A stretch of 64,000 nt of DNA, from positions 3,109,001 through 3,173,000 of the forward strand of contig NC_009675.1 in the NCBI RefSeq assembly GCF_000017505.1, in the 5' to 3' direction. The translations under genes were made by a program, and so were the position numbers. The DNA is from Anaeromyxobacter sp. Fw109-5. GTDB lineage: Bacteria; Myxococcota; Myxococcia; Myxococcales; Anaeromyxobacteraceae. Under the pieces are notes generated by a model. That model was not told the origin of the DNA. It ran no database searches and worked only from the letters and a program-made list of their open reading frames with translations. Positions 44,476 through 49,355 of the stretch are shown piece after piece (the first letter of the stretch is position 1; the number at the start of each line of letters is the position of its first letter).

Positions 44476-45780
44476 ATGTTCCCGCCCGTCCACGTCGCCG
44501 ACATCGCCCAGCACGAGGGGAAGGAGGTCACCCTCCACGGCTGGCTGTACAACCGCCGCTCGTCGGGGAAGCTGCACTTCCTCCAGGTCCGCGACGGCAC
44601 CGGTACGATCCAGTGCGTGGTCTTCAAGGGGAACGTGAGCCCGGAGGCGTTCCGCGAGGCGGACCACCTGCCTCAGGAGACGAGCCTCACCGTCACCGGG
44701 CTGGTGAAGAAGGACGAGCGGTCGCCGATCGGCTTCGAGCTCGACGTGCGCGACCTGAAGGTCGTGGCCCTGCCTTCCCAGGAGTACCCCATCGGCCACA
44801 AGGAGCACGGCGTCGCCTTCCTGATGGAGCAGCGGCACCTCTGGCTCCGCTCGCAGCGGCAGCAGGTCATCCTGCGCGTGCGGCACACGGTCGAGAAGGC
44901 CATCCGCGACTTCTTCGACGCGCGCGGCTTCACCCTCGTCGACGCGCCGATCTTCACGCCGTCCGCCTGCGAGGGGACCTCCACCCTCTTCGAGGTCCCC
45001 TACTTCGAGCTGGGCAAGGCGTACCTGACGCAGTCCGGCCAGCTCTACATGGAGGCCGCGGCCATGGCGCTCGGGAAGGTCTACTGCTTCGGGCCGACCT
45101 TCCGCGCCGAGAAGTCGAAGACGCGCCGCCACCTGACCGAGTTCTGGATGGTCGAGCCGGAGGTGGCCTACATGGACCTCGACGGCGACATGGAGCTCAT
45201 GGAGCAGTTCGTCTCGCACGTCGTCCAGACCGCGCTCGAGAAGCACCGCAAGGAGCTCGTGGCCGTGCTCGAGCGCGACGTGTCGAAGCTCGAGAACGTG
45301 AAGCCGCCCTTCCCGCGCATCACCTACACCGAGGCCGTCGACGTGCTGCAGAAGGCCGGCCACCCGATGAAGTGGGGCGACGACATCGGCGGCGACGAGG
45401 AGACCGTCATCGCGAAGCAGTACGACCGGCCGGTGATGGTGCACCGCTACCCGGCGGAGATGAAGGCCTTCTACTTCAAGAAGGACCCCACGGACCCGAA
45501 GGTCGCGCTCGGCTGCGACGTGCTCGCGCCGGAGGGCTACGGCGAGATCATCGGCGGCGGCGAGCGCGAGAGCTCGCTCGAGACGCTCGAGGCGGCCATC
45601 GCGCACCACCAGCTCCCGAAGGAGGCGTTCGAGTGGTACCTCGACCTGCGCCGCTACGGGACGGTGCCGCACGCCGGCTTCGGCATGGGAGTGGAGCGCT
45701 GCGTCGCGTGGATCTGCGGGCTCCATCACGTCCGCGAGACCATCCCGTTCGCGCGGATGATGGAGCGGATCACGCCGTGA
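44476..45780 (+). CDS. asnS: Asparaginyl-tRNA synthetase
   Basis: 434 residues, class IIb synthetase. An OB-fold anticodon-binding domain covers about 1-105 ([18 protein letters not shown]). The catalytic core has motif 2 [15 protein letters not shown] and motif 3 [12 protein letters not shown]. AsnS differs from AspRS by lacking the large bacterial insertion and by E-G-T-S-T-L-F-E-V in the active site, both seen here. Its presence implies direct charging of tRNA-Asn in this organism. The start ATG at 44476 lies 135 bp from divergent leuS. A tandem repeat array begins 18 bp after its stop. Confidence 0.96.
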
Positions 45781-45798
45781 GCCTGACCGCGCGCTTCG

Positions 45799-46573
45799 CG
45801 CGCGGCGGCTCACGGCCATGATCGAACGGGGGGCTGCGCCCCCCGCCCCGTCGACGGCTGACCGCCGTCGCCCGGGGCCCACCCCTGCTCGCCGGGGCCC
45901 GTGACCTCCGCCGGAGGCGGAGGTCCCCGGCGCGCCGGCTTCGCCGGCGGTTACGGCCGACACCGCGCGCTGCCGCATCGGAAGCGCCCCGCGCCTTCCC
46001 GCGCTACGCGCGGCGGCTCACGGCCATGATCGAACGGGGGGCTGCGCCCCCCGCCCCGTCGACGGCTGACCGCCGTCGCCCGGGGCCCACCCCTGCTCGC
46101 CGGGGCCCGTGACCTCCGCCGGAGGCGGAGGTCCCCGGCGCGCCGGCTTCGCCGGCGGTTACGGCCGACACCGCGCGCTGCCGCATCGGAAGCGCCCCGC
46201 GCCTTCCCGCGCTACGCGCGGAGGCTCACGGCCATGATCGAACGGGGGGCTGCGCCCCCCGCCCCGTCGACGGCTGACCGCCGTCGCCCGGGGCCCACCC
46301 CTGCTCGCCGGGGCCCGTGACCTCCGCCGGAGGCGGAGGTCCCCGGCGCGCCGGCTTCGCCGGCGGTTACGGCCGACACCGCGCGCTGCCGCATCGGAAG
46401 CGCCCCGCGCCTTCCCGCGCTACGCGCGGAGGCTCACGGCCATGATCGAACGGGGGGCTGCGCCCCCCGCCCCGTCGACGGCTGACCGCCGTCGCCCGGG
46501 GCCCACCCCTGCTCGCCGGGGCCCGTGACCTCCGCCGGAGGCGGAGGTCCCCGGCGCGCCGGCTTCGCCGGCG
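45799..46573. repeat. Tandem array: 208-bp unit, three full copies and one truncated
   Basis: Copies at 45799-46006, 46007-46214, 46215-46422 and 46423-46573 (151 bp) are essentially identical; the difference I saw is CGGCGGCT versus CGGAGGCT just before the conserved CACGGCC. Each unit can form four perfect hairpins, in copy 1 at 45827-45845, 45852-45870, 45903-45925 (10-bp stem) and 45933-45949, and holds two copies of CCGGGGCCC. The period of 208 is not a multiple of three, so the repeats cannot be a repetitive protein domain. Short reading frames of 60 codons on the minus strand recur only because the DNA does. The array occupies nearly all the space between asnS and the next gene. Confidence 0.95.
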
Positions 46574-46663
46574 AGACGCGTGATCAGCTTCGTGGCTCGG
46601 GCGACTCAGGCCTCGTTCCTGGACTGTCGGTGCACGGATAGTATCGCCGGCTCGGGGGTCGCC

Positions 46664-47326
46664 ATGCCGCTCTTCGCGCTCGTGATTCCGGTCCTGCTCG
46701 CGGCGGATCTCGGCGCCGCGTTGCCCGCGGGGGCGCTTCCTGACGCCCGCGACCCCATCGCGCCGCTTCTCGCCGCCTCGCCCGCGGGCGAGCGCTTCGC
46801 CCACGAAGAGGACGTTCAGAGCGCGGTTCCACCAGGCCGATGGCTGGCCGCGTCGGGGGCGACGCTCCTCGGCGACGCAGCCGTCACGGGGCTCGCCCTC
46901 GCCGGCGCCTCGATGTCGGTCGATGCGTGGCTGCGAGACCGTCCGACGACCGCCGGGGGAGCCGTCACGGGCGTCGCGGTGCTCGCGGCGCTCGTCGCCC
47001 CGCCCGTGTTCGCGACGTGGGGGGCGCGCCGCGCGGGCGCGCCGGGCGAGCACGCGGGCCGCGCCTACGGTCTCGGCCTCCTCGCGCACATCGGCGGCGC
47101 CACCGCGGCGTGGGGGCTCTCCGCGGTCGCGCAGCGCCACACCTCCGTCGAGCCGGGCCCTGTCTTCGTGGCGGCGTTCGCGGTCTCGGAGCTGGCGCTG
47201 ATGCCGTGGGTGGTGACGCGCGCTCTCGGGGGAGCCTCGCTGGCGGACGAGCCGACAGCGCCGGTGGACGGAGGGCCCTCGACACGCGCGCGCCCGCTCC
47301 GCGACCCGGCGCTTGCTACGCGCTGA
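46664..47326 (+). CDS. Small membrane protein of unknown function
   Basis: 220 residues from ATG 46664 (GGGGG-type site just upstream); an earlier in-frame start at 46580 would add a Cys-rich stretch that looks non-coding. It has a signal peptide or first membrane helix (about 2-20), then a charged outer loop with A-S-P-A-G-E-R-F-A-H-E-E-D. Four hydrophobic segments rich in Ala and Gly follow (about 58-85, 95-120, 135-155 and 162-190), and the C-terminus is charged. I do not recognise a family. It sits in the accessory stretch between the repeat array and the HNH gene. Confidence 0.5.
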   Translation: MPLFALVIPVLLAADLGAALPAGALPDARDPIAPLLAASPAGERFAHEEDVQSAVPPGRWLAASGATLLGDAAVTGLALAGASMSVDAWLRDRPTTAGGAVTGVAVLAALVAPPVFATWGARRAGAPGEHAGRAYGLGLLAHIGGATAAWGLSAVAQRHTSVEPGPVFVAAFAVSELALMPWVVTRALGGASLADEPTAPVDGGPSTRARPLRDPALATR

Positions 47327-47567
47327 ACGAGTCGTCACCGACTCGAGTCACGACGAGACTCCTCCCTCGGTGGATCGCGAGGGGACGGCGCCGACGGCCG
47401 GGCGGCCGGACCGAGCCAGCGACACCGGCCCGTCCGATCACGCCGGACCTCGCCGCGATCGGATCCAGGTCGGAAATGCGCGTCTGGAAGGCTCGAGAAC
47501 GCAATCGGCCGATCGGGCTCGCTGCGTCTGCGATCGGTGGACTCCAAACCACGTCCATTGACCGTCA

Positions 47568-49283
47568 GTGTCAGACCTCCATGCCATCCTGTGCGCGATG
47601 GAGGCCGCGCTCCCCACGCTCGAGACGGACGCGGTGACGCCCGACGCCTCGCTGGCCGGCTTCGCGGCGCCGCGGCTCGAGCTGCCGCCGCTCACCCGGG
47701 CCGAGCTCGAGACGTGGTTCCGCGGCGGGGAGCCGGAGGCGGACGCGTGCGAGCACCTCCTCGCCTGGGCGGCGCGGGCGCGGGCCGGATTGGATCTCGC
47801 GATCGGCGAAGGGCTCGACGCGCTCAGGCGGCGGGAACGGCTCGCGGAGCTGGGCTATCACCTCGACGACTATGCCCGCGAGGTCCTCGACCTCGGGAAG
47901 CGCACGGCCGAGAACCTCGCCCGGCTCGGGGCTGGGCTGCGAACACGTCCTCTGCTCCGGGAGGCGCTGCGGTCCGGGCGCGTCCGGATCCGCGCGGCGG
48001 AGACGGTGCTGCCGGTCGCGGTCGGCGAAGCCGAGGCGCTCTGGATCGAGCGCGCCAGGGTGCAGACGGTCCGGGAGCTGGAGGAGGAGGTCCGCGCGGC
48101 GCGCGCGCAGCCGAACGACGATGGCGAGGAGGAGTGGGTCCGGCTGCGCACGCATCTGCCACCGAACGAGCGGCTGGTCGTCGACGAGGCGCTCGCGGCC
48201 GCCCGCGAGCAGCTGCCGGGCTCGACCCGCATCGAGCAGCTGGAGGCGCTCGCGCAGGAGTACCTTGCCGAGTTCTCGACCGACGGCGACTCCGACGAGA
48301 CGCGCCCGCTCGGGCCCGGGTTTCGCGCGTGCGGCCTCGGTCACCCTGCGCGGCGCGCGGCGGGCGGGGCCGCGACCGATCGATGCGCCGAGCTCCCCCC
48401 GGTTCCGGAGCTCGCCGCGCCGGACGTCCCGTTCGACGAGACCTCGACGGCGCAGGAGATCGACGAACGTCTCCGCGCGCTCTCCCGCCTTCGGATGGCA
48501 TGGGATTCGCTCATCGGATTCTGCGGGCACGCGGTGAAGCGGAGCGGGATGCACGTGCTCCTGGGGTACGGCGGCTTCCGCCAGTACGTCGAGGAGCGGC
48601 TGGGGCTCCCCGCGCGCGCGGTGGAGCAGCGCGTCGCGCTCGAGAAGCGGCTCTGGGACTCTCCGGCGCTCCAGGAGGCGCGGCGGCAGGGCGTGTCGTA
48701 CGAGAAGCTGCGGGTACTCGCGCGCCTGCCGGAGGCCGACATCGCCTCGTGGATCCCTCGGGCGCTCGAGGCGACCTGCATCGCGCTGAACCGCGAGGTG
48801 GAGGGCGAGCGCGACGGGCAGATGCGTGCGCGGCAGAAGCTCCTCGTTCCGCTGCCGCGCCGCGTGGCGGTGCTCCTCGAGGCGGCCGTCGAGGCCGTCC
48901 GGGGACGATTCGGGCGCGTACTCTCGACCGGGACGTGCCTCTCGGTCATCGCGTTCCATTTCCTCGCGTCGTGGAGAGGCGCGGGCAGACGTTCGAAGAC
49001 CCGTTCGCAGAAGATCCGCGACCGGGATCAGGGCTGGTGCCAGGTCCCGGGGTGCAGCCACCGCGCCGCCCACTCGCACCACATCGACTACCGCTCGCAC
49101 GGCGGCAGCGACGACCTCGAGAACCAGGTCGGCCTCTGCGCCTTCCATCACCTGCGCTGCATCCACCGCGGCTTTCTTCGCGTATTCGGACGGGCGCCGG
49201 ACCGGCTCATCTGGATGCTGGGCGAGACGGTCTGGAAGGGACCTCCGGTCCGGAGCGCCGGCGCAGAGCTGCTGGCGAGCTGA
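47568..49283 (+). CDS. HNH endonuclease-domain protein (DUF222-like architecture)
   Basis: 571 residues. A long helical N-terminal region (about 1-450) resembles the DUF222/13E12-type part that usually precedes an HNH domain. It is split into two similar-looking parts around a Pro/Ala linker (about 245-295). The HNH motif is near the C-terminus: W-C-Q-V-P-G-C, then S-H-H-I-D-Y-R-S-H-G-G, then D-D-L-E-N-Q-V-G-L-C-A-F-H-H. Both zinc Cys pairs and the catalytic His are there, so the nuclease may be active. Such genes are often multi-copy and may be selfish or defence-linked; no partner is adjacent. The GTG at 47568 is a weak start; the ATG at 47598 is an alternative. Confidence 0.75.
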   Translation: MSDLHAILCAMEAALPTLETDAVTPDASLAGFAAPRLELPPLTRAELETWFRGGEPEADACEHLLAWAARARAGLDLAIGEGLDALRRRERLAELGYHLDDYAREVLDLGKRTAENLARLGAGLRTRPLLREALRSGRVRIRAAETVLPVAVGEAEALWIERARVQTVRELEEEVRAARAQPNDDGEEEWVRLRTHLPPNERLVVDEALAAAREQLPGSTRIEQLEALAQEYLAEFSTDGDSDETRPLGPGFRACGLGHPARRAAGGAATDRCAELPPVPELAAPDVPFDETSTAQEIDERLRALSRLRMAWDSLIGFCGHAVKRSGMHVLLGYGGFRQYVEERLGLPARAVEQRVALEKRLWDSPALQEARRQGVSYEKLRVLARLPEADIASWIPRALEATCIALNREVEGERDGQMRARQKLLVPLPRRVAVLLEAAVEAVRGRFGRVLSTGTCLSVIAFHFLASWRGAGRRSKTRSQKIRDRDQGWCQVPGCSHRAAHSHHIDYRSHGGSDDLENQVGLCAFHHLRCIHRGFLRVFGRAPDRLIWMLGETVWKGPPVRSAGAELLAS

Positions 49284-49355
49284 ACCGCGGTGAGGATATG
49301 GCGCACAGGGCGCGGGCCTTTGCCCCGTCGTCGCACCCCGGGTCGCCGTCGCCAT

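Follow-up and report, generated by a model that had tools for sequence, protein, structure and literature searches.

The tandem array directly behind asnS in Anaeromyxobacter sp. Fw109-5 is a locally multiplied member of a repeat family that is dispersed in Anaeromyxobacter genomes, and it probably arose by local tandem amplification of a non-autonomous, REP/BIME-like repeat of Anaeromyxobacter and its close relatives. In the window, by which we mean the whole stretch of 64,000 nucleotides that was analysed, TRF places the array at 45799-46573 with a period of 208, 3.7 copies, 99% matches and a score of 1536; the second-best tandem array in the window scores 81 at most. The genome that carries the array is a single contig of 5,277,990 bp. 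An earlier note, made from the letters of this stretch, had described three full 208-bp copies and a 151-bp partial copy, all nearly identical, starting 18 bp past asnS, and the analysis recovers exactly this arrangement, with asnS ending at 45780. Units 1 and 2 do not differ, and units 3 and 4 share a single C to A change at unit position 8, in keeping with the recent amplification that had been proposed; the argument that a repeat protein is not encoded also holds, as the period is not a multiple of three and there is no ORF evidence for one. The features of the array and its upstream neighbour are as follows.

44476..45780, + strand: asnS (asparaginyl-tRNA synthetase), 5' of the array; an ORF with matches to PF00152 (4e-70) and PF01336 (1.5e-17)
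45778..45812, + strand: hairpin from the asnS stop codon on, TGAGCC...GGCTCA, a palindrome
45799..46006, + strand: array unit 1, 208 bp
45819..45826, + strand: family left-end motif TGATCGAA, 5' of hairpin 1
45826..45933, + strand: family element in array unit 1 (model R1, 47.2 bits)
45827..45845, + strand: hairpin 1, CGGGGGGC-TGC-GCCCCCCG
45846..45877, + strand: hairpin 2, CCCCG.CGACGGC-TGACC-GCCGTCG..CGGGG, with an interrupted stem
45878..45889, + strand: unpaired linker, conserved; the family consensus reads CCCACCCCTGCT
45890..45932, + strand: hairpin 3, nested, CGCCGGGG[CCCGTG + inner 9-10 bp hairpin]CCCCGGCG
45933..45949, + strand: hairpin 4, CGCCGGC-TTC-GCCGGCG
45950..46006, + strand: 57-nt spacer separating the array elements
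46007..46214, + strand: array unit 2, same sequence as unit 1
46034..46141, + strand: family element in array unit 2 (model R1, 47.2 bits)
46215..46422, + strand: array unit 3, 208 bp, with one SNP at unit position 8
46242..46349, + strand: family element in array unit 3 (model R1, 47.2 bits)
46423..46573, + strand: array unit 4, partial (151 nt), with the SNP of unit 3
46450..46557, + strand: family element in array unit 4 (model R1, 47.2 bits)

The start of the array falls within the 3' arm of the stop-codon hairpin at 45778-45812. The asnS stop codon opens a hairpin in four relatives (including L032, L033 and L036), in which the sequences vary and the palindromic form is constant.

Within each unit the element core of about 124 nt forms the four perfect stem-loops that had been read from the sequence (8, 7, 10 and 7 bp; loops TGC, TGACC, GGA and TTC in the window copy), and when 45826-45949 is folded as single-stranded DNA, the minimum-energy structure consists of the same four hairpins (-56.5 kcal/mol; z = -5.9, with none of 200 shuffles folding equally well). 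In this fold the GGA-loop hairpin is nested within the 8-bp stem formed by CGCCGGGG and CCCCGGCG. Across the family the order is a left end TGATCTNACGGGG, hairpin 1, hairpin 2, the unpaired CCCACCCCTGCT, the nested hairpin 3 and usually more hairpins, and the family model comprises 113 positions and five helices; outside the array, model R1 reaches 18.7 bits at best within the window. The last 12 nt ahead of hairpin 1 contain GATC in 40 of 92 copies, against about 6% expected, and a C.T mismatch at a fixed stem position of hairpin 2 is common across copies. In an alignment of 44 copies, stem cells are paired in 97.2% of cases though the stem sequences vary, and at 20 pairs we counted 200 double-change cells, where shuffles gave 58 and slid controls about 20, the slid control being the weightier comparison since related sequences beat shuffles easily. 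Across these 44 copies compensatory change preserves the hairpins. Pairing is almost purely Watson-Crick, with G-U (11) and A-C (18) cells both rare (p = 0.26); 13 G-U cells in alignment columns 32/51 result from misalignment of one stem type. Because G-U does not exceed A-C, pairing looks to be maintained at the DNA level, by constraint or by copying, rather than solely as RNA.

A blastn-type search with one array unit as query returned 47 matches in its own genome, most of the informative ones covering unit positions 17-113; among the matches listed outside the array, two extend into the 57-nt spacer (a weak one at query 76-174 and another at query 128-167). The 31-nt core GGGGCCCCACCCCTGCTCGGCGGGGCCCGTG, allowing up to 3 mismatches, occurs at 23 sites in the Fw109-5 genome, four of them within the array, and the reversed core used as a control gives 0 matches there. 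Among congeners the core is found 59 times in A. terrae SG22 (G003) and 44 times in A. soli SG29 (G006), two drafts many of whose contigs terminate inside the element (for example G006:C8:91, C69:55 and C26:37), so that copy counts and arrays there may be wrong, and 27 times in G004; the remaining congeners hold fewer copies than these three. Of 146 Myxococcota genomes searched, nine have a match, all of them Anaeromyxobacteraceae, and the sampled Myxococcota outside this family have none. The covariance model, with 150 candidates scored per genome and its counts therefore read as lower bounds, gives at least 24 matches in Fw109-5 and from at least 17 to at least 70 in other well-assembled genomes of the genus. 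The earlier note had named the lack of a second locus in any genome among the results that would refute it; the unit and core searches and the covariance model give dozens of further loci. It had offered no named family for this unit, and the element has no Rfam match at either threshold, gathering score included. A plasmid origin gave no match either, and our literature searches found no paper naming or describing the family. A spaced-motif survey that includes A. dehalogenans 2CP-1 contains one GGGGA(N)43TCCCC pair, there called CRISPR-related.

To describe the genomic placement we took 101 distinct copies picked by sequence matches, with gene calls from a simple codon-usage predictor. Convergent gaps hold 49 of these copies, codirectional gaps 32 in sense and 14 in antisense orientation, and divergent gaps five, the remaining copy lying inside a weakly predicted ORF; a same-strand gene precedes 81 of the 100 intergenic copies. 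The remaining gaps at these loci, counted from 100 bp upwards, are distributed differently (3 convergent, 33 codirectional, 25 divergent), giving a convergent excess (p = 9e-10) and a divergent deficit (p = 2e-8) for the element. Hairpin 1 often begins 0-13 nt past a stop codon, with peaks in the distance at 0 and 5 nt, and at both peaks the stop codon lies within the element's own left end TGATCTNACGGGG, which often provides the stop codon of the host gene. The sense bias in codirectional gaps (32 versus 14, p = 0.011) could reflect selection at the RNA level.

This bias and the position of copies directly past stop codons favour another reading, in which the repeat is a conserved structured-RNA element of 3' UTRs, acting as a terminator free of a U-tract or as an exonuclease barrier, selected in the mRNA and mobile only incidentally. 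The strong covariation, the stable RNA fold of the array unit (z about -3) and the retention of an asnS stop-codon hairpin of varying sequence in four relatives are consistent with it as well. However, a constraint on RNA alone predicts an excess of G-U over A-C and is unsupported by the counts (11 versus 18), 19 of the 100 copies are antisense-codirectional or divergent, and close species differ in presence and absence of the element, so that we regard this reading as unlikely. With a Rho-independent terminator the element shares GC hairpins directly past the stop codon, but it has several hairpins, is dispersed by copying and showed no T tract after its hairpins in the terminator check; with no U-tract terminator found, the earlier suggestion that the array could end the asnS mRNA was not borne out.

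Published REP families lie mostly in convergent gaps or 3' of genes, no more than about 20 bp away from the gene's end, and their termini often supply the stop codon, with clusters reiterated in tandem (PMC3733652), while in E. coli REPs a stem mismatch is required for cleavage (PMC8266576). The family described here resembles REP/BIME elements as a set of dispersed intergenic palindromes with 3'-end placement, stop-codon supply and tandem reiteration, avoids divergent gaps, and shares with E. coli REPs a conserved stem irregularity, here the C.T in hairpin 2. It differs in that the element measures about 110-205 nt and is built of three to five unlike hairpins, whereas a REP is a single palindrome of 20-50 nt; in that it lacks a constant tag of the GTAG or CGTC superfamilies (of 101 copies, four carry GTAG at their left edge and 29 have CGTC/GACG); and in its confinement to Anaeromyxobacteraceae in the sampled genomes. 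A RAYT gene flanked by the repeat, as in GTAG-class REPs, was likewise not found: Y1_Tnp homologues occur in most Anaeromyxobacteraceae genomes, whether their elements are many or not, and at 20 Y1_Tnp loci from Fw109-5 and related genomes no element lies within roughly 1.5 kb on either side, which led us to reject a RAYT-linked REP. Since the behaviour is REP-like but tag, size and RAYT linkage differ from those of REPs, we file the family as a REP/BIME-like variant and not as REP; a REP/BIME-like element had been among the options of the earlier note, and the dispersed copies at gene 3' ends agree with that choice. The family's dispersal, its link with gene ends and its presence or absence from species to species had escaped that note. 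The sole Y1_Tnp-like match in Fw109-5 (L157, G000:C1:3811190-3811420) is a frame of 317 aa below the curated cut-off, with no element nearby.

Two further systems invite comparison. MIRU-VNTR loci of mycobacteria consist of a dispersed repeat in single or near-identical tandem units that touch gene ends and vary in copy number, the MIRUs being 46-101 bp long and not made of perfect GC hairpins. Compared by description only, the asnS array and its relatives share with them the single or tandem near-identical units at gene ends and differ in size and in their GC hairpins. BOX elements of Streptococcus pneumoniae are modular structured intergenic repeats with reiterated modules; the likeness, also drawn from description only, lies in this modular structured intergenic character, and modules, host and composition are different.

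A subset of about eight copies (class C), several of which are 223 bp long and nearly identical, has CTAAAC...GTTTAG ends with TA-like flanks, as would suit a MITE with terminal inverted repeats moved by a DDE transposase. However, these ends are missing from the majority of copies, among them the one at asnS, and the one clear DDE_3 transposase gene of Fw109-5 has no CTAAAC...GTTTAG ends around it. An IS630-type MITE was rejected as a general explanation, the ends being confined to class C and absent at the DDE_3 gene, and we consider a MITE origin of the family quite improbable.

Variation between species was followed at eight sites occupied in A. terrae SG22, whose orthologous flanks were compared in A. 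soli SG29 and, where found, in Fw109-5 (G000). Sites L233, L237, L244, L246 and L247 have no evident copy in the relatives compared; at L242 the element is reversed in orientation in A. soli SG29 and Fw109-5 has none; at L229 A. terrae SG22 carries two tandem copies and A. soli SG29 a single one with a different hairpin 2; and at L234 A. soli SG29 carries a shortened form. Judged from these flanks, presence, orientation and copy number vary between species as would be expected of mobile DNA. The intergenic flanks have diverged, so that the exact ends and any target duplication are not fixed by the comparison. Some element sites are common to several species, which indicates that some copies are old. 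BIMEs consist of REPs paired with inverted REPs, often in tandem; in the present family tandem direct copies are common, and one locus (L251) has copies in opposite orientation. Further tandem arrays of the element were found in Fw109-5 at 4436.8 kb (3 x 175 nt) and in G010 (3 x 160 nt), both with 98-100% identity, and in G004.

Behind asnS, A. terrae SG22 has one element followed by a PAP2 gene, PSR-1 has a single element and A. soli SG29 none, whereas the window has the array, two further genes and then PAP2. The single or missing element in the relatives indicates that amplification took place on the Fw109-5 side, unless an array was collapsed in A. terrae or A. soli, whose assemblies are drafts. 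An assembly artefact, in which a single unit was mis-assembled into an array, is very improbable, for although such similar repeats are hard to assemble and draft congener contigs often break off within the element, the Fw109-5 genome of about 5.28 Mb was Sanger-finished (PMC4319575) with clone coverage, the SNP is present in units 3 and 4 and not in 1 and 2, and further loci carry arrays too, among them one in G010, likewise a single-contig genome.

The tandem amplification of a dispersed, non-autonomous repeat that we favour would proceed as follows. Copies would spread as folded single-stranded DNA by means of a trans-acting factor, perhaps an enzyme of the Y1/HUH type as with REPs, and would persist at gene ends, where their insertion does no harm; slippage, or unequal recombination at short palindromic homologies, would then have multiplied a copy that already lay 3' of asnS. 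If transcribed, the hairpins would fall in the asnS 3' UTR, where they may stand in the way of 3' exonucleases or of transcription, either as a by-product or as a function taken on later. It is possible, though we put it forward only tentatively, that the family represents a genus-level class of large mobile repeats with several hairpins each, which have neither REP tags nor a linked transposase, move as folded single-stranded DNA, carry their own stop codon for landing at gene ends and amplify in place to VNTR-like arrays. In a metal-reducing genus the family remodels many gene 3' ends, and its filled and vacant sites in closely related species, together with the variable tandem copy number, make it a compact test case for REP-like spread without an obvious transposase and for asking whether hairpins at gene ends act as parasites, protect mRNAs or do both.

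Several smaller observations accompany these results. The two genes between the array and PAP2 (window positions 46574-49350), neither of which has a Pfam match, are missing in A. terrae (L031 and L032 compared), and the second is related to an A. soli gene. The A. terrae element copy behind asnS contains a suspicious run of C, which likewise makes copy counts and arrays in the drafts uncertain. The class C loci of Fw109-5 (L012, L013, L014, L015, L165, L019, L020 and L164) are bounded by CTAAACCATGG...GGTCGTTTAG, and their left part, a 60-bp palindrome, is found without the element too (L298). In G004 (C168; L257:1656-2753) two element copies are adjoined by a tandem array with roughly five copies of another unit, which is about 202 bp long and rich in CCGTGA-like motifs.
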